Both the position numbers and the translations under genes were made by a program. Positions 34,904-46,450 of a stretch of 64,000 nucleotides of DNA are shown piece after piece. Each line of letters opens with the position of its first letter. Position 1 is the first letter of the stretch. The notes under the pieces were generated by a model. That model was given only the letters and a program-made list of their open reading frames with translations, was not told where the DNA came from and searched no databases. The stretch is from NCBI RefSeq assembly GCF_023516435.1, contig NZ_CP097332.1, positions 1,488,001-1,552,000 on the forward strand. The letters are read 5' to 3'. This DNA comes from Jatrophihabitans telluris (lineage in GTDB: Bacteria > Actinomycetota > Actinomycetes > Mycobacteriales > Jatrophihabitantaceae).

Positions 34904-37900
34904 TCAGACGTTGCGCCGGTACTGCCCACCAACTTCGAAGAAGGCCTCGGTGATCTGCTGCAGCGAACACACCCGGGCCGCCGCCATCAACTCCACGAAC
35001 AGGTTCTCGTGCCGCGCCGCGGCCTCGCGTAGGCGGGCCAGCGCGTCTTGGGCCACGTCGCGGTGAGCGGTGTGGAAATCGGCCAGCCGGCGCAACTGGG
35101 ACTGCTTTTCCACATCGGTGCCGCGGGCCAGTTCCACGGCGGCCGACTGCTGGTCGGCCGCCGGGTTGAGGAAGGTGTTGACGCCGACGATCGGCAGGCT
35201 GCCGTCGTGCTTTCGGTGTTCGTAGAGCATCGATTCGTCCTGGATCCGGCCTCGCTGATAACCCGTCTCCATGGCGCCGAGCACTCCGCCACGCTCGGTG
35301 AGGCGATCGAACTCCGTGAGCACGGCCTGTTCGACCAACTCGGTCAGCTCCTCGACGATGAACGATCCCTGCAGTGGGTTCTCGTTCTGCGACAGCCCCC
35401 ATTCGCGGTTGATCACCAGCTGGATGGCCAGCGCGCGTCGCACCGATTCGGCCGACGGCGTCGTCACCGCCTCGTCGTAGGCGTTGGTGTGCAGGCTGTT
35501 GCAGTTGTCGTACAACGCGTTGAGAGCCTGCAGCGTCGTGCGGATGTCGTTGAACGCCATCTCCTGGGCGTGCAGTGATCGTCCGGAGGTCTGAACGTGG
35601 TACTTCAGCTTTTGGGACCGTTCGCCGGCTCCGTACCGCTCGCGCATCGCAATCGCCCAGATCCGGCGCGCGACCCGCCCCAGGACCGTGTACTCGGCGT
35701 CCATGCCGTTGGAGAAGAAGAACGACAGGTTCGGGGCGAAGTCATCGATGTTCATCCCGCGGGCCAGGTAGGACTCGACGTAGGTGAAACCGTTGGCCAG
35801 CGTGAAGGCCAGCTGGCTGATCGGGTTCGCCCCGGCTTCGGCGATGTGATAGCCCGAGATGGACACCGAATAGAAGTTGCGCACCTGGTTGGCCACGAAG
35901 TACTCGGCGATATCACCCATCATGCGCAGTGAGAAGTCGGTGGAGAAGATGCAGGTGTTCTGCCCCTGATCCTCCTTGAGGATGTCGGCCTGAACGGTGC
36001 CGCGCACCGTCGAGAGGGTGCGCGCTCGTAGCGCCGCGTCCTCCTCGGGCGACGGCGGCCGCCCCTGGTCCTCGGCGAAGCGTTCGCGCTGCTGGTCGAT
36101 CGCCGCGTTCAGAAAGAAGGCCAGGATGGTCGGCGCCGGCCCGTTGATGGTCATCGACACCGAGGTGCTCGGGTCACACAGGTCGAAGCCTGCGTACAGC
36201 GCCTTCATGTCCTCCAGGGTCGCGATGGAAACACCGGACGTGCCGACCTTGCCGTAGATGTCGGGACGTTCGTCCGGGTCGCGGCCGTAGAGGGTCACCG
36301 AATCGAAGGCGGTGGACAAGCGGTTGGCCGGCTGCCCTTCGGACAGCAGATGGAAGCGCCGATTCGTTCGGAAGGCGTCCCCCTCGCCGGCGAACATCCG
36401 GGCCGGGTCCTCGCCGTCCCGCTTGAACGGGAAAACGCCTGCCGTGTAGGGGAAATATCCGGGCAGGTTCTCCTCGCGCAGGAACCGCAGCAGCGATCCG
36501 TCCTCGCCGTAGCGCGGTAGGGCGACCCGCGGAATGCTGTTTCCGGACAGGGTGGTGCGACGCAGCGGCGTTCGTGATTCGCGGTCGCGGATCGGGACGA
36601 TGAGTTCCTCCCCGCAATAGCGCTCGGCCAGGGAGGGCCATTCGCTCAGCATTCGGCGCGAGTCCTCGCGCAGGCGCGCGTCCGCTTGTGCGATCAGCTG
36701 GTGAAGACCGGCCTCGGGGGCGGAATCGCTTTCGCGGACCAGGGATTCGGCCCGCATGAGTGCCGCCCGGTCGCGGGCCAGTTCGACCTCGGTGTTCGTG
36801 GTGGTGTGGTAGCGGCGGACGGTGTCGGCGATCTCGGCCAGGTAGCGCACCCGGCTCGCCGGGACGGGGACGGTGAGACCGGTGGACACTTTGCCCGTCA
36901 CCGGACTGAGGGTGCCTTCCGCGGTCGCCAGCCCACGTCGAGACAGCTCGTCGCGCAGGTGGAAGTACAGGGCGGTCATACCGTCGTCGTCGAAGCTGGC
37001 CGCGCTGGTGCCGAAGACCGGCATGTCCTGCCACGACTGGCCGAAGGCTTCGCGGTTTCGCACCAACTGGCGCGCGACGTCACGCCGCGCGTCCTCTGAT
37101 CCACGCCGCTCGTACTTGTTGATGGCGACCGCGTCGGCGAAGTCGAGCATGTCGATCTTCTCCAGCTGGGAGGCCGCTCCGAACTCCGCGGTCATCACGT
37201 AGAGCGACAGGTCGCAGTGCGCGACGATCGACGAATCCCCCTGTCCGATACCGGGAGTCTCAATCACGACGAGGTCGTAGCCGGCCGTCCGGCACGCGGC
37301 GATGGCGTCCGGCAAGCAGGACGGAACCGGCACTTCGCTGCCCCTGGTGGACATCGAGCGGAAGTAGACGCGGTCTGTGTGGGAATCCTCGCCGAGGGCG
37401 TTCATCCGGATCCGGTCACCGAGCAGCGCACCGCCGCCCTTGCGCCGGCTCGGATCGATGGCCAGGACGGCGGTGCGGATCTTGTCCTGTTGGTCGGCCC
37501 GCAGCCGCCGGATGAACTCGTCGGTCATCGAGGACTTGCCGGAACCGCCCGTGCCGGTGATGCCGAGTACGACGCTGGGATGCTGCGCCGCGCGCAGTTC
37601 ACTCACCTGGTCCTCGGGCAACCGGCCGGCCTCGATGAGGGAAATAGCTCGTGCGAGCGCGCCGCCGTCGCCGGTGCGGATCCTGGCGACAAGGTCGGGT
37701 TCGGCCGCGGGCAGCGGGTGGTCGCCGGTCTCGATGATGGTGTTGACCATGGCCGCAAGCCCGAGCCGTTGACCGTCCCCGGGCGAGAAGATTCGCGAGA
37801 CACCCGCGGCGTGGAGCAGTTCGATCTCCTCGGCGACGATCGTTCCGCCACCGCCGCCGAAGACGGCGATGTCGCCGGCTCCGCGCTCGCGCAGCCGGTC

Positions 37901-38146
37901 GACCAGGTAACGGAAGTATTCGACGTGACCACCCTGATAGGAACTGATCGCCACCGCCTGCACGTCTTCCTGGATGGCGGCCGTGACGATCTCGTCCACC
38001 GAGCGGTTGTGCCCCAGGTGGATGACCTCGGCGCCCTGCGCCTGCAGGATCCGCCGCATGATGTTGATCGCGGCGTCATGGCCGTCGAAGAGGGCGGCCG
38101 CGGTCAGTACGCGAACCGGGTGGGCGGGCGTGTGCAGGTGGGTCAT
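34904..38146 (-). CDS. icmF: Fused isobutyryl-CoA mutase IcmF (coenzyme B12 dependent)
   Basis: A 1080-residue fusion. Residues 10-145 are the B12-binding domain, with the cobalt-ligating H23 in LFDGHDAA. About 190-430 is the MeaB-like G-protein chaperone (Walker A GTGGSGKSS; ETPGIGQGDSS). A linker of about 90 residues precedes the substrate TIM barrel (about 530-1080; YTAGVFPFKRDGEDP, YGKVGTSGVSIATLEDMKALY). The FPFKR stretch and Q in GQNTCIF match the IcmF pattern rather than methylmalonyl-CoA mutase. It interconverts isobutyryl-CoA and n-butyryl-CoA, serving valine and branched fatty-acid metabolism. ATG 38146 has AGGAG at 7 bp. Two palindromic operators lie just upstream at 38182-38217. 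Confidence 0.95.
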   Translation of the reverse strand: MTHLHTPAHPVRVLTAAALFDGHDAAINIMRRILQAQGAEVIHLGHNRSVDEIVTAAIQEDVQAVAISSYQGGHVEYFRYLVDRLRERGAGDIAVFGGGGGTIVAEEIELLHAAGVSRIFSPGDGQRLGLAAMVNTIIETGDHPLPAAEPDLVARIRTGDGGALARAISLIEAGRLPEDQVSELRAAQHPSVVLGITGTGGSGKSSMTDEFIRRLRADQQDKIRTAVLAIDPSRRKGGGALLGDRIRMNALGEDSHTDRVYFRSMSTRGSEVPVPSCLPDAIAACRTAGYDLVVIETPGIGQGDSSIVAHCDLSLYVMTAEFGAASQLEKIDMLDFADAVAINKYERRGSEDARRDVARQLVRNREAFGQSWQDMPVFGTSAASFDDDGMTALYFHLRDELSRRGLATAEGTLSPVTGKVSTGLTVPVPASRVRYLAEIADTVRRYHTTTNTEVELARDRAALMRAESLVRESDSAPEAGLHQLIAQADARLREDSRRMLSEWPSLAERYCGEELIVPIRDRESRTPLRRTTLSGNSIPRVALPRYGEDGSLLRFLREENLPGYFPYTAGVFPFKRDGEDPARMFAGEGDAFRTNRRFHLLSEGQPANRLSTAFDSVTLYGRDPDERPDIYGKVGTSGVSIATLEDMKALYAGFDLCDPSTSVSMTINGPAPTILAFFLNAAIDQQRERFAEDQGRPPSPEEDAALRARTLSTVRGTVQADILKEDQGQNTCIFSTDFSLRMMGDIAEYFVANQVRNFYSVSISGYHIAEAGANPISQLAFTLANGFTYVESYLARGMNIDDFAPNLSFFFSNGMDAEYTVLGRVARRIWAIAMRERYGAGERSQKLKYHVQTSGRSLHAQEMAFNDIRTTLQALNALYDNCNSLHTNAYDEAVTTPSAESVRRALAIQLVINREWGLSQNENPLQGSFIVEELTELVEQAVLTEFDRLTERGGVLGAMETGYQRGRIQDESMLYEHRKHDGSLPIVGVNTFLNPAADQQSAAVELARGTDVEKQSQLRRLADFHTAHRDVAQDALARLREAAARHENLFVELMAAARVCSLQQITEAFFEVGGQYRRNV

Positions 38147-38231: not shown

Positions 38232-39047
38232 CTAGTGTGCGAGGGCACGTGCGAGGATGTCGACGATCCGCTCGCGCGCGCCGAGCAGGGACGGTCCGTA
38301 CCAGGTCAGGCAGCGGCCGTCGATGAGGGCGGCGGGCAGCCCCGCAAAGGCTTCGGGGCCATCGCTCGCGCTGAACGGATAGGGCTCGTCCGGCAGGAGC
38401 ACCACCTCCGCCCCGCCGGCCCGCACCGCGGAGTGTTCGACCTGGGGGTAGCGGGCCGAACCTCGTCCGGAGGACGCTTCCGCGGGGTCCGTCTCCTGAT
38501 CGAACACGTTGCGGGCGCCGAGCCGGGTCAGCAAGGACGACGTGAATGTGCGCGGGCCGACGACCATCCACGGATCTCGCCAGATCGGGACCGCGACCCG
38601 GACCCACGGATCGGTGTCCGGCCCACGCCACTCGGCCCGGGCTTCCGGCAGCCAGGTCGGCTCCGGTCGCTGCAGGGCAATCGTGAACAGGCGGGCGAGG
38701 GAGGCCATGGCCTCGTCGATGGACTCGATGGCCGTGACCCACACGTCCAGACCCTGGGCGCGCATCCGGCGCACATCCAGTTCGCGATTCTCTTCCTGGT
38801 TGGCGATCACCAGATCGGGGCGCAGGCCGGCGATGCGCGCCAGGTCCGGGTTCTTGGTGCCGCGGATGCGCGTGACGTCCAGGCCCGCTGGCTGGGTGCA
38901 CCAGTCAGTGGCGCCGACCAGTACCTCCGGGGCGGTCGAGGCGATCGCCTCGGTCAGTGACGGCACCAGGCTCACCACGCGCCGGACCTGTCGGCCCTGG
39001 GATGGGTGGGACAACGGATGACCGAGGTCGTCACTGGGAGCGGGCAC
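38232..39047 (-). CDS. Cytosolic BtuF-like helical-backbone metal receptor
   Basis: A 271-residue protein with the two lobes joined by a long helix typical of BtuF/FhuD-type receptors: VVSLVPSLTEAIAS, LVGATDWCTQPAG, TKNPDLARIAGLRPDLVIANQEEN, and a C-terminal lobe with MVVGPRTFTSSLLTRLGARNVF and EVVLLPDEPYPF. The start at 39047 yields no signal peptide or lipobox, unlike true B12-uptake proteins, so it should stay in the cytosol. It lies directly upstream of icmF on the same strand, 85 bp apart across the operator. A role in holding or delivering cobalamin is attractive but inferred. Confidence 0.88.
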   Translation of the reverse strand: MPAPSDDLGHPLSHPSQGRQVRRVVSLVPSLTEAIASTAPEVLVGATDWCTQPAGLDVTRIRGTKNPDLARIAGLRPDLVIANQEENRELDVRRMRAQGLDVWVTAIESIDEAMASLARLFTIALQRPEPTWLPEARAEWRGPDTDPWVRVAVPIWRDPWMVVGPRTFTSSLLTRLGARNVFDQETDPAEASSGRGSARYPQVEHSAVRAGGAEVVLLPDEPYPFSASDGPEAFAGLPAALIDGRCLTWYGPSLLGARERIVDILARALAH

Positions 39048-39081
39048 CGGTCCATAGTCCCGGACGCACCAGTGCTCACCC

Positions 39082-39113
39082 GAGTTTGAATATCCAACTC
39101 AGCCGGGTAGCGT
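39082..39113 (+). promoter_or_regulatory. Probable promoter with overlapping palindromic operator
   Basis: TTGAAT (39086-39091) and TAGCGT (39108-39113) fit -35 and -10 elements with a 16-bp spacer, about 100 bp upstream of the SDR start. GAGTT (39082-39086) and AACTC (39096-39100) are ends of a 19-bp near-perfect palindrome covering the -35, so a bound repressor would block polymerase. The regulator is not identified. Confidence 0.55.
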
Positions 39114-39208
39114 CGTACCGAGCCGGCCGCACCGCCGGCCGTCTGAGCCGATTGCCCAGTGCCTCTCAGCCACCATTTCCTTTCAGCACACATTTCGAGG
39201 AGAGATCG

Positions 39209-39937
39209 ATGACGTTCAACGGATCCGTAGCCCTGGTGACCGGAGCGAACCGCGGCCTCGGACGGGAATTCGTCCGGGCCCTGCAGCGTCGCGGCGTCAG
39301 CAGGATCTACGCCGGTGCCCGTAATCCCGACAGTGTCACCGTGGACAACATCGACGGGGTACGGGTGATCCCGCTGCGCATGGACGTCACCGATCCCGAC
39401 ACGGTCGCGCAGGCAGCCGCCGTCGCCACCGACGTGGACCTGCTGATCAACAACGCCGGCAGTTCGACCGGAAGCCTCGTCGTCACCGGTGATCTGAGCC
39501 AGGTACGCCTGGAGATGGATACCCACTACTACGGAACGCTGACGGTCATCCGAGCCTTCGCGCCGATCCTCGACGCCAACGGTGGCGGCGCGATCGTGAA
39601 CGTGCTCTCGGCGCTGTCGTGGGCCGTGCTGCCCACCACGTCGGCCTACAGTGCGGCCAAGTCGGCCGAGTGGGCGTTGACCAACGCCGTCCGCCAGGAG
39701 CTTGCCGCCCAGGGAACCCAGGTTTCCGCGCTGCACGTCGGCTACATGGACACCGACATGACCGCCCGAATCGATGCGCCCAAATCGCACCCGGCCGTGA
39801 TCGCCGAGTTCGCCCTGGACGCTGTCGAGGCCGGCGAGCTGGAAATCCTCGCCGACGAGACCTCCCGGACGATCAAGCAGGCGTTGTCGGCGCCCATCGA
39901 GGCGATCTACCCACAGTTCTCCGGAGCGCGGGCATAG
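39209..39937 (+). CDS. Short-chain dehydrogenase/reductase
   Basis: A 242-residue SDR. TGANRGLG binds the cofactor, NNAG follows strand 4, and Y147/K151 stand in YSAAK. It resembles the small SDR family often annotated as oxidoreductase with an ALSWAVLPTTSAYSAAKSAEW core. ATG 39209 follows GAGGAGAG; the frame extending to 38957 overlaps the divergent BtuF-like gene and is rejected. It appears to be a single-gene unit with its own promoter. Substrate unknown. Confidence 0.9.
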   Translation: MTFNGSVALVTGANRGLGREFVRALQRRGVSRIYAGARNPDSVTVDNIDGVRVIPLRMDVTDPDTVAQAAAVATDVDLLINNAGSSTGSLVVTGDLSQVRLEMDTHYYGTLTVIRAFAPILDANGGGAIVNVLSALSWAVLPTTSAYSAAKSAEWALTNAVRQELAAQGTQVSALHVGYMDTDMTARIDAPKSHPAVIAEFALDAVEAGELEILADETSRTIKQALSAPIEAIYPQFSGARA

Positions 39938-39947
39938 TCCACACTCA

Positions 39948-39981
39948 CAGCAGGTTTCACCGTAACCGGTGACTTGCTGAG
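39948..39981 (+). promoter_or_regulatory. Hairpin in the leader of the permease operon
   Basis: CAGCA (39948-39952)/TGCTG (39975-39979) and CACCG (39958-39962)/CGGTG (39967-39971) form two stacked stems around a TAAC loop, with a 5-by-3 internal loop. The GAGGGGG ribosome-binding sequence starts at the base of the stem. It could affect translation of the permease or end the upstream SDR transcript. I do not recognise it as a known riboswitch class. Confidence 0.4.
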
Positions 39982-39990
39982 GGGGACGCC

Positions 39991-41490
39991 ATGAGTACGG
40001 TGCGGGAAAGTCATGACCAGGACCGTCCCGGCTCGGGACCGTTCGCAGCGGCCGTGCCCGCCGGGGTCGAGCTAAACGGGATCAACGTCATCGCCGAGTC
40101 CGAACGCAAGGGTCGTCCGCGCGAGCTGTTCTGGCCGTGGTTCGCTTCGAACATCTCGGTCCTCGGCGTCAGCTACGGCGCGTTCGTGCTCGGCTTCGGG
40201 GTGTCCTTCTGGCAGGCCGCTCTCGTCGGGGTGATCGGCATCGTCGCCTCGTTCGCGCTCTGCGGCGTCATCGCGCTTGCCGGACGCCGGGGTTCCGCGC
40301 CGACGATGGTGCTTTCCCGTGCCGCCTTCGGTGTCCGGGGCAACCGCCTGCCGTCGGTGTTGTCATGGGTACTCACGGTCGGTTGGGAGACGGTCCTGGT
40401 CGTGCTGGCCACCCTCGGGACGGCCACGGTATTCGGCCGGCTGGGCTGGAGCCACGGTACGGCGACCAAGATCGTCGCGCTGCTGGTCGTCGCAGCGATC
40501 ACCGTTGCCGCCGGCGTGGCCGGTTTCGATGCGGTCATGAGAATCCAGGCCGTGATCACCGTCGTCACCGGTGTGCTGACGGTCGTGTACATGGTCCTGG
40601 TGGCCCATCACATCCACTGGCACACGGTTTCGTCGGTGCCCACGGGCTCGGCCCAGCACTTCATCGGAGCGCTCGTGTTCGTCATGACCGGATTCGGATT
40701 GGGCTGGGTCAACGCCGCGGCGGACTATTCGCGCTACCTGCCCCGGCGCTCCTCGGCCCGCGGCGTGTTCGGTTGGACCACGCTCGGTGCGGCGATCGGG
40801 CCGGTCGTGCTAATCCTCTTCGGCCTGTTGCTGGCCGGGTCGTCCACCGACCTGTCCACGGCGATCGGCTCCGACCCGATCGGCGCCCTGACCACGATCC
40901 TGCCGACCTGGTTCCTCGTGCCGTTCGCGGTCGTTGCCGTCCTCGGCCTGATCGGCGGTGCGGTCCTGGACATCTACTCATCCGGTCTCGCGCTGCTGAC
41001 CGCAGGACTGCGGATTCCCCGCTATCTGGCGGCCGCCGTCGACGGCGTCATCATGGTCGCCGGAAGTATCTACGTGGTCTTCTTCACCGACAACTTCGTC
41101 TTTCAGTTCCAGGGCTTTCTGATCACGCTCGGCGTGCCGGTGGCGGCGTGGTGCGGCGTCATGCTGGCCGACGTCGCGCTGCGCCGCCGCGACTACGACG
41201 AGTCGGCTCTGTTCGACCCGCGCGGCCGTTACGGCGACATCCAATGGGTACCGATCATCGCCGTGGTGGCGGGCACGGCAATCGGGTGGGGGCTGGTGAC
41301 CAACACCGCCGCCGGCTGGCTGAACTGGCAGGGCTATCTGCTTCGGTTCGGGCTCGGCGGCAAGCAGGGTGACTGGGCCTTCGCCGGCATCGGTGTCCTG
41401 GTGGCCCTGCTGATCGGCCTGATCGTCGGCGTCGCGGTGGCTGTGCGGCGCATCCCGAGCCAGGAGGCGTCGGCGGGATCAACCCGGTGA
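39991..41490 (+). CDS. NCS1-family nucleobase permease (cytosine/purine permease type)
   Basis: A 499-residue membrane protein with about twelve hydrophobic segments. NCS1 features are the N-terminal GINVIAESERKGRPRELF just before TM1, ASNISVLGVSYGAFVLG in TM1, and GWVNAAADYSRYLPRRSS after TM6. The family imports nucleobases, hydantoins, allantoin, nucleosides or vitamins by cation symport. It heads a run of four genes with overlapping or nearly touching ends (39991-43950). GAGGGGG precedes ATG 39991. The imported compound is probably the substrate of the downstream hydrolases. Confidence 0.92.
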   Translation: MSTVRESHDQDRPGSGPFAAAVPAGVELNGINVIAESERKGRPRELFWPWFASNISVLGVSYGAFVLGFGVSFWQAALVGVIGIVASFALCGVIALAGRRGSAPTMVLSRAAFGVRGNRLPSVLSWVLTVGWETVLVVLATLGTATVFGRLGWSHGTATKIVALLVVAAITVAAGVAGFDAVMRIQAVITVVTGVLTVVYMVLVAHHIHWHTVSSVPTGSAQHFIGALVFVMTGFGLGWVNAAADYSRYLPRRSSARGVFGWTTLGAAIGPVVLILFGLLLAGSSTDLSTAIGSDPIGALTTILPTWFLVPFAVVAVLGLIGGAVLDIYSSGLALLTAGLRIPRYLAAAVDGVIMVAGSIYVVFFTDNFVFQFQGFLITLGVPVAAWCGVMLADVALRRRDYDESALFDPRGRYGDIQWVPIIAVVAGTAIGWGLVTNTAAGWLNWQGYLLRFGLGGKQGDWAFAGIGVLVALLIGLIVGVAVAVRRIPSQEASAGSTR

Positions 41491-42026
41491 GCCGCGCCCT
41501 GCTGGTGATCGACATGCAGCAGGTATTCGCCGATCCGGCCAGCCCGTGGTCGACGCCCGGCTTTGCCGCGGTGCTGCCTCGTGTTCGCGAACTGACCGAT
41601 GCCTTCGCCGGACGGACGGTCTACACCCGCTTCGTTGCTCCGGCCGAACCGTGGGGCTCCTGGGTGCCCTACTACCGGCAATGGTCCTTCGCGCTGCGGC
41701 CGCCGGACGCGCAGCTGTGGACGATCGTGCCGGAACTGGCCGTGGGGTCGGCACCGGTTCTGGACGCGCCCACCTTCGGTAAGTGGGGTCCGCAGCTCCA
41801 GCGCCTGCTCGGCGGAGCGGCGGACATCGTGGTAGCCGGGGTGTCCACCGACTGTTGCGTGCTCTCGACGGTGCTCGCTGCTGCCGACGCCGGAGCGCAC
41901 CTGATGGTGGCTGCGGACGCGTGCGCGGGAATGAGCGAAAACGACCACCGGCGAGCGGTCGAGGCGATGGCCCTCTACGCTCCATTGGTAGAGATCGTCA
42001 CGACTGCGGAGGTGCTTGGGGGTTGA
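41487..42026 (+). CDS. Cysteine hydrolase, isochorismatase/nicotinamidase-like
   Basis: A 179-residue isochorismatase-fold enzyme with triad D9 (VIDMQQVF), K99 (TFGKWG) and C124 (TDCCVLST). It is closest in style to cysteine hydrolases acting on amides or carbamates. GTG 41487 overlaps the permease stop, and its own stop overlaps the TTG start of the next gene, so its dose is tied to both. In this setting it may hydrolyse an amide or ureide freed from the imported compound. Confidence 0.9.
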   Translation: MSRALLVIDMQQVFADPASPWSTPGFAAVLPRVRELTDAFAGRTVYTRFVAPAEPWGSWVPYYRQWSFALRPPDAQLWTIVPELAVGSAPVLDAPTFGKWGPQLQRLLGGAADIVVAGVSTDCCVLSTVLAAADAGAHLMVAADACAGMSENDHRRAVEAMALYAPLVEIVTTAEVLGG

Positions 42027-43018
42027 GCAACGAACGCGCGCGGATGGCCCTGTGGGGTCTGGCCATCGGCGACGCGCTGGGAATGCCGACCCAGTCGATG
42101 GCGCGCGAGGACATCAACGGCCGCTTCGGGCCGATCGCCGGGTTCCTCGCCTCCCCGTCCGATCAGCCGATCGCCCCGGGCCGGGTGGCGGGCTCGGTGA
42201 CCGACGACACCGAACAGGCCGTGCTGCTGGGCTATTCGCTCATCGAAGGGCGCGGGCGGATCGACCAGGCCGCCTTCGCCTCAGCACTGATCTCGTGGGA
42301 ACAGGGCATGATCGCCCGCGGCTCGCTCGACCTGCTGGGTCCATCGACCCGCCGGGCGATCGCGGAGCTACGGGCCGGTACCCCCGCCGGTGAGGCGGGT
42401 GCGGCCGGCACGACCAACGGCGCGGCCATGAGAATCACCCCGGTCGGCCTGGCCGCCTCCGCCGATGACCTCAAGGCGCTCGTCGATGTCGTGGTGCAGA
42501 CCAGCGAGTTGACGCACAACACCTCGCCGGCGTTGGCCGCCGCGTCCGCCGTGGCCGCCGCGGTCAGCGTCGGGGTGGCCGGCGGGGCTGTCGACGAGGC
42601 CATCGAGGTGGCCATCGAAGCGGCTGATCTGGGAAGCCGGCGCGGTCGGTGGGTCGCAGGCGGCTCGGTCTCCGAGCGGATCCTGTGGGCGGTGTCGACC
42701 TGTGCGGGCCGCGGTGGTGACGCCCTCGATGAGCTCTACACCATGCTCGGCACCGGATTGGCAGCCAACGAGTCGGTGCCTGCCGCGTTCGGGATCCTCG
42801 CGATGTGCCCGGACGACCCGTGGCGGGCCTGCCGGCTCGCAGCCGGAATCGGTGGAGACACCGACACCATCGCGGCGATTGTCGGTGCGATCGGCGGGGC
42901 GTGTCTGGGCGCATCGGCGTTTCCGGCCTCGGCTCGCGAAACCGTGGCCGCGGTGAACACCTTGGAGCTGGATTCGCTGGCCGACGGGCTTTACGCCCTG
43001 CGGCTGGTCATCGGCTGA
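42023..43018 (+). CDS. ADP-ribosylglycohydrolase-family protein
   Basis: A 331-residue DraG/ARH-fold protein. The two-metal-site motifs are intact: GDALGMP at 16-22, T60-D61-D62-T63-E64, and G277-G278-D279-T280-D281-T282. The family removes N- or O-linked ADP-ribose, but members inside catabolic operons may split simple N-ribosides. TTG 42023 overlaps the preceding stop (TTGA) with GGTGCTTGGGGG upstream; ATG 42044 would lack a ribosome-binding site. It sits between a nucleobase-type permease with amide hydrolase and a PfkB sugar kinase, which argues for a small-molecule riboside substrate rather than a modified protein. Confidence 0.9.
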   Translation: MSNERARMALWGLAIGDALGMPTQSMAREDINGRFGPIAGFLASPSDQPIAPGRVAGSVTDDTEQAVLLGYSLIEGRGRIDQAAFASALISWEQGMIARGSLDLLGPSTRRAIAELRAGTPAGEAGAAGTTNGAAMRITPVGLAASADDLKALVDVVVQTSELTHNTSPALAAASAVAAAVSVGVAGGAVDEAIEVAIEAADLGSRRGRWVAGGSVSERILWAVSTCAGRGGDALDELYTMLGTGLAANESVPAAFGILAMCPDDPWRACRLAAGIGGDTDTIAAIVGAIGGACLGASAFPASARETVAAVNTLELDSLADGLYALRLVIG

Positions 43019-43020
43019 CG

Positions 43021-43950
43021 GTGCCTCCATCACGCATCGCGCCGAACGGCCGGTTGGTGTACCTGGGCAACGCGGTCGTCGATCTGGTGCTCGCGGTACC
43101 TCGGCTGCCTGATCCGGGGGAGGACGTACGCGCTCGGGCAGCGAGCTGGGTACCCGGCGGCGGCGTGAGCACGATGGTCGCGGCGGCACGCCGGGGGATG
43201 GGCGTCTGCTACGCCGGCCGGACCGGGACCGGACCACTGGCCGAGCTGATCCGGAGCCGTCTGCGTCGCGAGGGGATCGTGCTCTGGGGCGAGCCGGTTG
43301 CCGGACAGGACAACGGCGTGGTCATCTGCCTGGTCGAACCGGACGGGCAACGAGCATTCGTGACCACGACCGGGGCGGAGGCTCTTCTGGAAGCCGAGCA
43401 TCTGCAGGGTCTGGCGGTCGGTCCCACCGACCTGGTCGCGTTGACCGGCTACGGACTCGCTCACCCGGTCAACGGGTTGGCACTCGCGGGCTGGCTGGCG
43501 ACGATCCCGGACGAGACGGTTGTGTTGCTGGACCCTGGTCCGTGGGTCGGCGACGCTGGTGCCGGCGTCCTCGACCGGGTCCTGCCACGCGTCGACTGGT
43601 ACAGCTGCAATGCGCGCGAAGCGCGGCTGGCGACCGGGTGCGCTGATCTCGCCGTGGCGGCCGAGCGCCTGTCCGCGGGGACGGGCCGAGTCGGCATCCT
43701 GGTGCGCGATGGGGAGCGGGGGTGCTGGCTTCGACTGCCGGGCACGCCTGCTGAGTTGGTCGCCGGGGATTGGGTCCCGCCGGACGGAGTGAAGGACACG
43801 ACTGGTGCCGGCGACGTACACGCCGGTGTGTTCCTGGCCGAACTTGCTGCGGGCAGGGGCGCGAAGCAGGCCGTCGCGGCCGCGAACGCCGTGGCCGCCG
43901 AATCGATCCGTCATCCGGGCCCCGGGTTACCGTTCTCCGGCCTGGAGTGA
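43021..43950 (+). CDS. PfkB-family carbohydrate or nucleoside kinase
   Basis: A 309-residue ribokinase-like protein. The N-terminal sheet begins LVYLGNAVVDLVLAVPRLP; the GG-type substrate loop is WVPGGGVSTMVAAARRG; the anion-hole/catalytic motif DTTGAGD places the base at D265. It would phosphorylate a sugar such as ribose or a nucleoside. GTG 43021 lies two bases after the stop of the ADP-ribosylglycohydrolase-like gene; the longer frame to 42805 lies inside that gene. It ends the four-gene operon. If the upstream enzyme releases ribose, this kinase would trap it as ribose phosphate. Confidence 0.9.
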   Translation: MPPSRIAPNGRLVYLGNAVVDLVLAVPRLPDPGEDVRARAASWVPGGGVSTMVAAARRGMGVCYAGRTGTGPLAELIRSRLRREGIVLWGEPVAGQDNGVVICLVEPDGQRAFVTTTGAEALLEAEHLQGLAVGPTDLVALTGYGLAHPVNGLALAGWLATIPDETVVLLDPGPWVGDAGAGVLDRVLPRVDWYSCNAREARLATGCADLAVAAERLSAGTGRVGILVRDGERGCWLRLPGTPAELVAGDWVPPDGVKDTTGAGDVHAGVFLAELAAGRGAKQAVAAANAVAAESIRHPGPGLPFSGLE

Positions 43951-44070
43951 AGCTTGGAGTGGGGCAGCTGCCCGGGCCGCGGAGACTGGGCCGTGCCTGC
44001 TACGCACCGCCCATTCGCTCACAGCGAACGATAACGGCGCGTTGCTGGGAACATCCGCCCCTCGCCTGTA

Positions 44071-44091
44071 CTTGAGTGAACAAGACTCAAG
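44071..44091. promoter_or_regulatory. Perfect HAIR element (HspR operator) upstream of lon
   Basis: CTTGAGT (44071-44077), a 7-bp spacer, and ACTCAAG (44085-44091) match the HAIR consensus exactly. HAIR is bound by the heat-shock repressor HspR of actinomycetes, which controls dnaK, clpB and, in Streptomyces, lon. It ends 16 bp before the lon ATG. Confidence 0.95.
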
Positions 44092-44107
44092 TGTGAGGAG
44101 ATGGCCG

Positions 44108-46450
44108 ATGGCCGACATACAGCGTTTGCCCGTCCTGTCAGTGACGGACCTGGTGGTACTGCCGGGAATGGTGGTCCCGATCGAGCTCGACGAGGCCGCT
44201 CAGGCGGCGGTGGACGCCGCGCGTACGAGCAGCGAGGACACTCTGCTGCTGGCGCCGCGGCTGGAAGACCGCTACGCCGCCTACGGCGTGATCGCCACGA
44301 TTCAGCAGGTCGGCCGGTTGGCCGGTGGCGCCCCCGCTGCGGTGCTGCGAGCGGGCCAGCGAGCCAGGATCGGAGTCGGCGTGACGGGTCCCGGCGCGGC
44401 CCTGTGGGTCGAGGCGGAGCCGGTCGAGGCTCACGCCGCGACCGAGCACGAGAAGGAGCTGGCGGCCGAGTACAAGTCGCTCGTCATCGCCAGCCTGCAG
44501 AAGCGCGACGCCTGGCAGGTCATCGACACCGTGCAGCGGGTGACCGACCCGGGGACCCTGGCCGACATGGCCGGCTACGCCAGCTACCTGACCGCTGAGC
44601 AGAAACGCCAGTTGCTCGAGACCCCGGAGATCGAGGCTCGGCTCACGGCCCTCATCAGCTGGACGAAGGACCACCTGGCCGAACTCGAGGTGTCGGAGAA
44701 GATCAGCGACGACGTCCGCGAGGGCATGGAGAAGAACCAACGCGAATTCCTCCTGCGCCAGCAACTGGCGGCCATCCGCAAGGAGCTGGGCGAGGACGAG
44801 CCCGACGGCGCCCAGGACTACCGCGGCCGGGTTGAAGCGGCGGAACTACCCGCCAACGTTCGCGAGGCGGCCCTGCGCGAGGTCGGACGGCTGGAGCGAG
44901 CCAGCGACCAGGGTCCCGAAGCGGGCTGGATCAGGACCTGGCTGGACACCGTCCTCGAACTGCCCTGGGCGGTGCGAACCACCGACGCGACCGACGTGAC
45001 GTCGGCGCGCGCGGTGCTCGACGCAGACCACCACGGCCTGACCGACGTCAAGGACCGGATCGTGGAGTACCTGGCGGTGCGCAGCCGCCGGGCCGAACGC
45101 GGCCTCGAGGTCGTCGGCGGTCGCGGGTCCGGTGCGGTGATGGCGCTCGTCGGGCCGCCCGGCGTGGGCAAGACCAGCCTCGGGGAATCCGTGGCCCGGG
45201 CGCTGGGGCGCACGTTCGTCCGGGTCGCTCTCGGCGGTGTCCGGGACGAGGCGGAGATTCGTGGTCACCGTCGCACCTACGTCGGCGCGCTACCCGGTCG
45301 GATCGTGCGAGCCATCGGTGAGGCAGGTTCCATGAACCCGGTCGTGCTGCTGGACGAGATCGACAAGGTCGGCGCCGACTATCGCGGTGATCCTGCCGCG
45401 GCGTTGCTCGAAGTGCTGGACCCGGCGCAGAACCACACCTTCCGCGATCACTACCTGGACCTGGACCTGGACCTGTCAGACGTCCTGTTCCTGGCCACCG
45501 CGAACGTGATCGAGTCGATTCCCGCGGCCCTGCTGGATCGGATGGAACTGATCTCGATCGACGGCTACACCGAGGACGACAAGGTGGCGATCGCCCGTGA
45601 ATACCTGCTGCCCCGGCAGTTGGAGCGGGCCGCTCTGGATGCCGGCGAGCTCGAGTTGACCGATGCCGCGCTCCGGGAGATCGTCGCCAACTACACCCGC
45701 GAGGCCGGCGTCCGGCAGCTGGAGCGGTTGCTGGCGAAAGCCCTGCGCAAGGTAGCCACCCGAATGGCGACCGACGAGCAGGCCGAGCGCCGCACCATCG
45801 ACGCCGGCGACGTCCGGACCTACCTCGGACGAGCCCGGTTCACGCCGGAATCACCCGAGCGCACCGAGGTTCCCGGGGTGGCCACGGGTCTGGCTGTGAC
45901 CGGTCTCGGCGGCGACGTGCTGTTCATCGAAGCGAGCGCGACCCAGGGCGCGGCCGGCCTGACCCTGACCGGCCAGCTCGGCGAGGTCATGAAGGAATCG
46001 GCCCAGATCGCGTTGTCCTACGTCCGGTCACATGCCGGTGAGTTGGGCGTGGACGCCGAAGCGCTGGACCGCTCGATTCACGTGCACGTGCCGGCCGGGG
46101 CTGTCCCGAAGGACGGACCGTCCGCCGGCGTGACGATGGTGACCGCGCTGACGTCGATGGCGACCGGACGGCCGGTGCGTTCTGAGGTCGGTATGACCGG
46201 AGAGGTGACACTGAACGGGCGCGTGCTACCCATCGGCGGGGTCAAGCAGAAGTTGCTGGCCGCGCAGCGGGCCGGCTTGACCACGGTGTTCATCCCGGCT
46301 CGCAACGAGCCGGATCTCGACGACGTGCCTGCCGATGTATTGGCGGCGATCGACGTTCGTCCGGTCAAGGACGTCGCTGAGATCCTCGCGTACGCGCTGG
46401 CCGAGTCCGGGACTGCCAGCGCGCGGGGCTCACAGCACGCTGCAGCCTGA
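44108..46450 (+). CDS. lon: ATP-dependent protease Lon
   Basis: A 780-residue Lon protease. The N-terminal LON domain (about 1-200; LPVLSVTDLVVLPGMVVPIELDE) is followed by a coiled region with EFLLRQQLAAIRKELGE, the AAA+ module (Walker A GPPGVGKTS, Walker B VVLLDEIDKVG) and the proteolytic domain with catalytic dyad S672 (GPSAG) and K713 (GGVKQK). It degrades misfolded and regulatory proteins. ATG 44108 has GAGGAG at 8-bp spacing; an ATG at 44101 is out of frame. The HAIR site shows HspR control, so induction by heat shock is expected. A strong hairpin terminator follows at 46524-46556. Confidence 0.97.
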   Translation: MADIQRLPVLSVTDLVVLPGMVVPIELDEAAQAAVDAARTSSEDTLLLAPRLEDRYAAYGVIATIQQVGRLAGGAPAAVLRAGQRARIGVGVTGPGAALWVEAEPVEAHAATEHEKELAAEYKSLVIASLQKRDAWQVIDTVQRVTDPGTLADMAGYASYLTAEQKRQLLETPEIEARLTALISWTKDHLAELEVSEKISDDVREGMEKNQREFLLRQQLAAIRKELGEDEPDGAQDYRGRVEAAELPANVREAALREVGRLERASDQGPEAGWIRTWLDTVLELPWAVRTTDATDVTSARAVLDADHHGLTDVKDRIVEYLAVRSRRAERGLEVVGGRGSGAVMALVGPPGVGKTSLGESVARALGRTFVRVALGGVRDEAEIRGHRRTYVGALPGRIVRAIGEAGSMNPVVLLDEIDKVGADYRGDPAAALLEVLDPAQNHTFRDHYLDLDLDLSDVLFLATANVIESIPAALLDRMELISIDGYTEDDKVAIAREYLLPRQLERAALDAGELELTDAALREIVANYTREAGVRQLERLLAKALRKVATRMATDEQAERRTIDAGDVRTYLGRARFTPESPERTEVPGVATGLAVTGLGGDVLFIEASATQGAAGLTLTGQLGEVMKESAQIALSYVRSHAGELGVDAEALDRSIHVHVPAGAVPKDGPSAGVTMVTALTSMATGRPVRSEVGMTGEVTLNGRVLPIGGVKQKLLAAQRAGLTTVFIPARNEPDLDDVPADVLAAIDVRPVKDVAEILAYALAESGTASARGSQHAAA

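Follow-up and report, generated by a model that had tools for sequence, protein, structure and literature searches.

What do four closely packed genes do together? The question is raised by positions 39,991 to 43,950 of a 64,000-nucleotide stretch of the Jatrophihabitans telluris genome (contig NZ_CP097332.1, positions 1,488,001 to 1,552,000; hereafter the window), in which an NCS1-family permease, an isochorismatase-fold cysteine hydrolase, an ADP-ribosylglycohydrolase (ARH)-fold enzyme, and a PfkB-family kinase are encoded one after the other. The window is part of a host genome of 4.19 Mb in one contig. In window coordinates, the four genes are as follows.

39991..41490, plus strand: NCS1-family importer, subtype A, 499 amino acids (aa) (Pfam Transp_cyt_pur, E 1.4e-38)
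41487..42026, plus strand: isochorismatase-fold cysteine hydrolase, 179 aa, GTG start (Pfam Isochorismatase, E 1.6e-28)
42023..43018, plus strand: ADP-ribosylglycohydrolase-fold enzyme, YegU-type, 331 aa, TTG start (Pfam ADP_ribosyl_GH, E 9.9e-60)
43021..43950, plus strand: PfkB-family kinase, YegV-type, 309 aa, GTG start (Pfam PfkB, E 8.5e-33)

A sequence-only reading of this DNA had proposed a four-gene operon, and its coordinates and junctions all match the sequence: importer and hydrolase genes share a 4-base GTGA overlap (41487-41490), hydrolase and glycohydrolase genes a 4-base TTGA overlap (42023-42026), and the GTG of the kinase gene at 43021 follows the end of the glycohydrolase stop codon at 43018 after a gap of 2 bp. 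The four family assignments were likewise confirmed, as each protein exceeds its own Pfam cut-off (e.g., 133.3 versus 23.5 bits for the permease with PF02133 and 203 versus 26.2 bits for the glycohydrolase with PF03747); of the more specific NCBIfam models touched by the four proteins, none was matched at its cut-off. When related loci are considered, the quartet looks like a variant of a widespread bacterial gene set of the yegTUV type, with another importer and one extra hydrolase.

For the comparison, 89 loci were used, consisting of the best 80 of at least 494 relatives in named genomes and 9 loci from 60 related genomes; they represent the closest relatives rather than a fair sample. A YegV-type kinase gene is located within 1.8 kb of the glycohydrolase gene and on the same strand in 82 of these loci, an NCS1 permease gene is present in 75, a YegW-like GntR gene lies directly upstream in 74, and a gene for an isochorismatase-fold hydrolase occurs in 31. 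Conservation of the quartet elsewhere had been set beforehand as a test of the pathway idea, and all four families are found together in 26 of the 89 loci, in the order permease-hydrolase-glycohydrolase-kinase in 18 of them and glycohydrolase-kinase-permease-hydrolase in the other 8. The GntR gene accompanies 23 of these full loci, the three without it (L045, L050, and L098) resembling the window in this respect. With all four families in 26 of 89 loci and glycohydrolase plus kinase on one strand in 82, the linkage of these genes is beyond chance.

The partnership of glycohydrolase and kinase leads to E. coli K-12, for which one study (PMC10819704) describes yegT, yegU, and yegV as an operon beside yegW and the yegTUV genes as having no agreed function; a 2025 paper refers to yegV as a sugar kinase not yet characterised (PMC12506659). 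The window glycohydrolase is homologous to YegU along its full length (32% identity over 329 aa, E 1.2e-49), as is the window kinase to YegV (32% over 295 aa, E 1.3e-29), and among eight E. coli PfkB proteins YegV is the nearest relative of the kinases in 83 of 83 aligned rows. In a tree for which 7 of 13 distant rows had a usable frame, the others dropping out, YegU was placed as sister to 24 glycohydrolases of the module and apart from the 7 distant actinobacterial ones, the support for this placement being weak (80/42) and the branches long. Of the GntR regulators of related loci, two were scanned; both contain a GntR and a UTRA domain, and they are 31% identical to YegW over 179 and 130 residues, respectively. 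Because the core is homologous to E. coli yegTUVW, the quartet is not without precedent, as had been supposed for it as a pathway. Besides the homologous core, both operons include an importer gene; they differ in that the window has an NCS1 permease in place of YegT, a member of the major facilitator superfamily (MFS) to which it shows no similarity (best E 0.52), in the added isochorismatase-fold gene, and in gene order. Furthermore, yegW stands beside the E. coli operon, whereas the window operon has no GntR/UTRA or YegW-like gene next to it, and within the host genome the best match is partial (32 bits).

Exchange of the importer around a constant core is evident from the loci compared. 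Those of the type GntR-ARH-NCS1-PfkB from Pseudomonas, Salinicola, Kushneria, and Paraburkholderia, which are annotated by family only, where annotated at all, share the core and an NCS1 importer with the window, but this importer belongs to a second subtype, B (32 to 40% identity to that of the window), and in none of the 48 loci with subtype B is the hydrolase present. On plasmids, for which 4 of 9 matches were read, the set comprises GntR, glycohydrolase, NCS1, and kinase in Paraburkholderia; GntR, glycohydrolase, kinase, and an ABC system in Mesorhizobium and Rhizobium; and glycohydrolase, kinase, and an ABC system without GntR in Paracoccus, so that the importer is of the ABC type in all three alphaproteobacterial plasmids read. 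The best match of the ABC binding proteins is PotD, and since their scores (153 to 157 bits) are far under the cut-off of 582, polyamine transport should not be assumed for these loci. As importers differ in this way across related loci, we treat the importer family as a variable trait of YegTUVW-type operons. A gene cluster resembling serine hydroxymethyltransferase (SHMT) genes stands beside the operon in four loci (L041, L050, L059, and L099) and was considered as a link to SHMT/FolD metabolism. A riboswitch scan covering 10 of the 89 loci placed ZMP/ZTP riboswitches downstream of the kinase gene and before or at the start of the SHMT-like gene in three of them (L059:8956-9038, L099:9180-9263, and L041:5708-5789); because of the riboswitch in three of the four cases, the cluster is probably a neighbor under its own control, and the link was set aside.

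The extra hydrolase follows the importer. Permeases more than 50% identical to that of the window were assigned to subtype A and those with 50% or less to subtype B; in alignment A4 the window permease, which scores below the cut-offs of TIGR00800 ncs1 (73 of 353 bits) and CytX, is 63 to 70% identical to 9 subtype-A rows and 32 to 36% identical to 6 subtype-B rows. The hydrolase is present with subtype A in 27 of 27 loci and with subtype B in 0 of 48, and in four further loci (L032, L033, L034, and L040) it accompanies the glycohydrolase without a matched permease. In one locus (L107:6992-12413), both importer subtypes occur within a single gene run with glycohydrolase, NCS1-B, kinase, NCS1-A, and hydrolase.

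The same association was found from the side of the hydrolase. In a survey of 394 genomes of the class, 33, including that of the window, encode the hydrolase with an E value no higher than 1e-41; two genomes with weaker matches (G128 and G077) were scored as negative, and a further weak row (G280) was set aside. At the 33 hydrolase loci from the other 32 genomes, an NCS1-A gene adjoins in 28, while a YegV-type kinase gene is present in 5 and a glycohydrolase gene in 2. The sequence-only reading thus has to be revised: what the hydrolase goes with is the importer subtype, not the glycohydrolase (27/27 versus 0/48 and 28/33 versus 2/33). Such free-standing actinobacterial pairs consist of the same two adjacent proteins as in the window and differ from it in that they mostly occur without glycohydrolase and kinase, as NCS1-A and hydrolase do in 26 of the 33 loci (the 28 less the 2 with all four). 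In three loci (L175, L177, and L181) the hydrolase gene is directly followed by a YegV-type kinase gene, with neither NCS1-A nor glycohydrolase nearby. A glycohydrolase match at E 1e-50 is missing from most hydrolase genomes, yet commoner among them than among the others (5/33 versus 6/361; Fisher p 0.001, uncorrected for relatedness). Since the hydrolase accompanies NCS1-A so consistently and mostly without the glycohydrolase, the two are an independent pair that was joined to the YegU/YegV core in some lineages.

Proteins of the ARH fold usually carry annotations as enzymes that reverse the ADP-ribosylation of proteins. The motifs TDDT and GGDTDT are present in the window protein and in 87 of 90 aligned rows, the remaining 3 being gapped or out of register at these columns; TDDT and D-x-D-T are the dinuclear metal motifs of the fold, and by this comparison the metal site is conserved. 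In the loop before GAAMR, which lines up with the diphosphate loop of ARH3, residues G129, T131, N132, and G133 are found in 87 to 90 of the 90 rows. The predicted structure of the glycohydrolase (mean predicted local distance difference test [pLDDT] 95) has its best solved match in MJ1187 (1t5j; Z 38.9, root mean square deviation 2.3, 299 residues aligned), followed by rows with Z values of 35.4 or less, and the same protein is the nearest solved structure by sequence (E 3.7e-27). MJ1187, a protein without an assigned function, thus shares the ARH fold and is closest in both respects, differing in being archaeal. The active sites of all three enzymes had been described as intact, which holds for the glycohydrolase only and must be qualified for the hydrolase and the kinase.

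In the hydrolase, Asp9 is conserved in 31 of 32 rows (one gap) and Cys124 in all 32. Isochorismatase-fold cysteine hydrolases possess a catalytic Asp, a Cys, and a canonical Lys ahead of a conserved Phe. At the place of this Lys, positions 90 to 94, Lys occurs in only 0 to 2 of the 32 rows each; its location depends on the alignment, one of which sets it opposite residue 88, likewise not a Lys in the window protein. Among the positions examined, Lys99, two residues after Phe97 within the motif TFGKW, is the sole Lys kept in 32 of 32 rows, and TRFxAP is a second invariant motif. A fold search with the hydrolase model (pLDDT 93.8) retrieved maleamate amidase (4l07, Z 23.5; 3ot4, Z 23.3), TrtA (6xix, Z 21.8), PncA (Z 21.8), BiuH (5bk6, Z 21.6), and RutB (8blm, Z 21.3), the best rows lying within about 2 Z units so that the amidase subfamilies are left unseparated. 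With these enzymes the window hydrolase shares the fold, the Asp, and the Cys; it differs from them in lacking a conserved Lys at the canonical place and in having TFGKW and TRFxAP. A role as nicotinamidase, by which the operon would serve a nicotinamide riboside route, was also considered. Nicotinamidases bind a metal through Asp-His-His, and DWHP in the enzymes from P. horikoshii and E. coli falls opposite TRFVAP in the window hydrolase, which scores 24.7 of 174 bits with PRK11609; because the metal residues are missing, this role was rejected, though nicotinamide riboside itself may still be a substrate. A distant, 40% identical relative is encoded on a marine Paracoccaceae plasmid (L207:2961-12811). 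Its neighbors include genes for two flavin monooxygenases of the NtaA type and for an ABC importer as well as nicotinate-dehydrogenase-like genes, and from its gene content the cluster looks like a set for the breakdown of N-heterocycles. Such a setting is absent from the three other hydrolase neighborhoods read, though XdhC-family genes and an ABC system occur in one of them (L209).

The catalytic Asp265 of the kinase is conserved in 81 of 83 rows, the other two being gaps, and among solved structures ribokinases resemble the protein more closely than nucleoside kinases do; its score with the ribokinase model is 78.7 bits versus a curated cut-off of 299.65. Residues N14, D16, K43, N46, E143, and D255 are the ribose contacts of the ribokinase RbsK. 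Only D16 and D255 are kept in the window kinase, with N14 replaced by Val, K43 by a gap, N46 by Ser, and E143 by His. The Ser, Ser50 in the window numbering (region 43173-43176), is found only in the window, the column being Asn in 80 of the 83 rows and Trp or Arg in the other two. N14, K43, and E143, which bind ribose in ribokinase, are not kept in the YegV-type class as a whole, and hence phosphorylation of released ribose by the kinase is unsupported.

Taken together, these data suggest that the quartet may serve catabolism or salvage as an operon of the YegTUV(W) type, a reading to which we give slightly less than an even chance. Its NCS1-A permease would import a small compound containing nitrogen, with a nucleoside-like N-glycoside as the likeliest candidate, and the metal-dependent ARH-fold enzyme would break the N-glycosidic bond; the kinase would phosphorylate the sugar after its release, or before cleavage as in PsuK-PsuG, and the isochorismatase-fold hydrolase would cut an amide or ureide, either in the compound as imported or in its aglycone. 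A small-molecule role of the glycohydrolase, anticipated in spite of its family name, is supported by the importer and the sugar kinase that constantly accompany it, and cleavage of a riboside by it is plausible. The logic of importer, glycosidase, and PfkB kinase recalls the PsuT-PsuG-PsuK and ribose operons, which belong to other glycosidase and transporter families; the kinases studied here differ in being nearer to YegV. Extended to the whole YegU/YegV core, the proposal becomes more doubtful: the core would be a hitherto unrecognised small-molecule pathway in which a metal-dependent N-glycosidase of the ARH fold acts on imported glycosides that resemble nucleosides and are perhaps positively charged or alpha-linked; E. 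coli yegTUV would represent the same pathway, and the quartet would add an aglycone hydrolase with its catalytic Lys moved to Lys99. The coupling to importer and kinase, with its swap between NCS1, ABC, and MFS importers, argues that an entire branch of ARH proteins has small molecules as substrates. Clues to the compound handled come from this swap and from the association of the hydrolase with a single NCS1 subtype, and E. coli yegTUV could be explained by the same answer.

Several observations weigh against the operon being such a salvage unit. The kinase gene is missing in 7 of the 89 loci, namely L033, L035, L036, L038, L040, and, also counted as without it, L048 and L072, where the sequence ends about 80 bases or less past the glycohydrolase gene. 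The glycohydrolase is found in only 3 of 9 genomes of the same genus, including that of the window, and at E 1e-50 in only 11 of the 394 genomes of the class, with five candidates scored per genome; in G234 and G280, hydrolase and glycohydrolase are encoded on different contigs. The genomes of L175, L177, and L181 lack a glycohydrolase match at this threshold, and since they pair hydrolase and kinase alone, the kinase may not need the glycohydrolase. To these are added the ribose contacts of ribokinase that are missing from the kinase class and, at the column of one such contact, Ser50 in the window; moreover, no activity is known for any member. In favor, the N-heterocycle setting of the hydrolase relative at L207 is a hint. 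No study of the quartet was found in the open-access literature, subscription journals being outside the scope of the search.

An order of events reversed with respect to cleavage first, as in PsuK-PsuG, would have the YegV-type kinase phosphorylate the riboside and the glycohydrolase cleave the resulting 5′-phosphoriboside to aglycone and ribose 5-phosphate. This would agree with known ARH substrates, which carry a ribose 5′-phosphate ester, with the alignment of the G129/T131/N132/G133 loop to the diphosphate loop of ARH3, and with a kinase that keeps its catalytic Asp without the sugar contacts of ribokinase; the nearness of the kinase to ribokinases among solved structures, and to YegV rather than PsuK or YeiI among E. 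coli proteins, makes it unlikely. Rather unlikely, too, is the union of two functions under one promoter, in which NCS1-A and hydrolase would use one compound, e.g., a ureide or amide, and glycohydrolase and kinase another, the genes being joined for regulation. The 26 of 33 loci in which NCS1-A and hydrolase stand without glycohydrolase and kinase, and the 48 of 89 loci in which the core is combined with NCS1-B and no hydrolase, speak for this account, but mixed sets recur, with hydrolase and glycohydrolase lacking NCS1 in four loci and hydrolase and kinase together in three; the full loci show two joined orders (18 and 8), and the glycohydrolase is more frequent in hydrolase genomes, subject to the relatedness left uncorrected in that test.

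Turnover of a nucleotide sugar or ADP-ribose-type compound, such as ADP-glucose or a related ADP-linked sugar, has been proposed for E. coli yegTUV. According to that work, YegW/GgaR releases DNA in the presence of ADP-glucose in vitro and the operon is tied to glycogen (PMC10819704), and yegV appears on a screen list of glycogen-deficient deletions in a second source (PMC6195507). The response to ADP-glucose counts against a salvage role, as a nucleotide-sugar role fits it as well. For the quartet we consider the latter quite improbable nonetheless: at the loci with annotated neighbors, not all of which are named, no glycogen gene turned up alongside; the window operon lacks an adjoining YegW-like gene; and NCS1 permeases are known as importers of nucleobases and similar small compounds, not of nucleotides. 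Reversal of the ADP-ribosylation of proteins or other macromolecules, as by DraG or ARH enzymes, appears highly improbable. It can draw on the same fold and metal motifs (Z 35.2 with DraG, 2woc, and 34.8 with ARH3, 2foz) and on a match to the DraG model TIGR02662 (E 3.1e-23); however, the scores are far under the curated cut-offs for DraG (82.4 of 337 bits) and Tri1 (53.4 of 490 bits), the gene is constantly coupled to those of an importer and a sugar kinase, and no ADP-ribosyltransferase was seen among the neighbors named. The salvage reading thus remains the one we prefer.

A consensus scan of positions 38900-44300 identified no sigma-70-type promoter (0.3 expected in shuffled sequences) and no terminator-like site on the plus strand; two terminator-like sites lie on the minus strand, near the chance level given a shuffle mean of 1.6. 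The signals scanned neither interrupt the four-gene unit nor prove a common transcript. A search of the window for Rfam families gave no match. Upstream of the operon, on the minus strand (34904-38146), an open reading frame of 1080 aa resembles, by eye and from its translation only, a cobalamin-dependent acyl-CoA mutase fused to a G-protein part.

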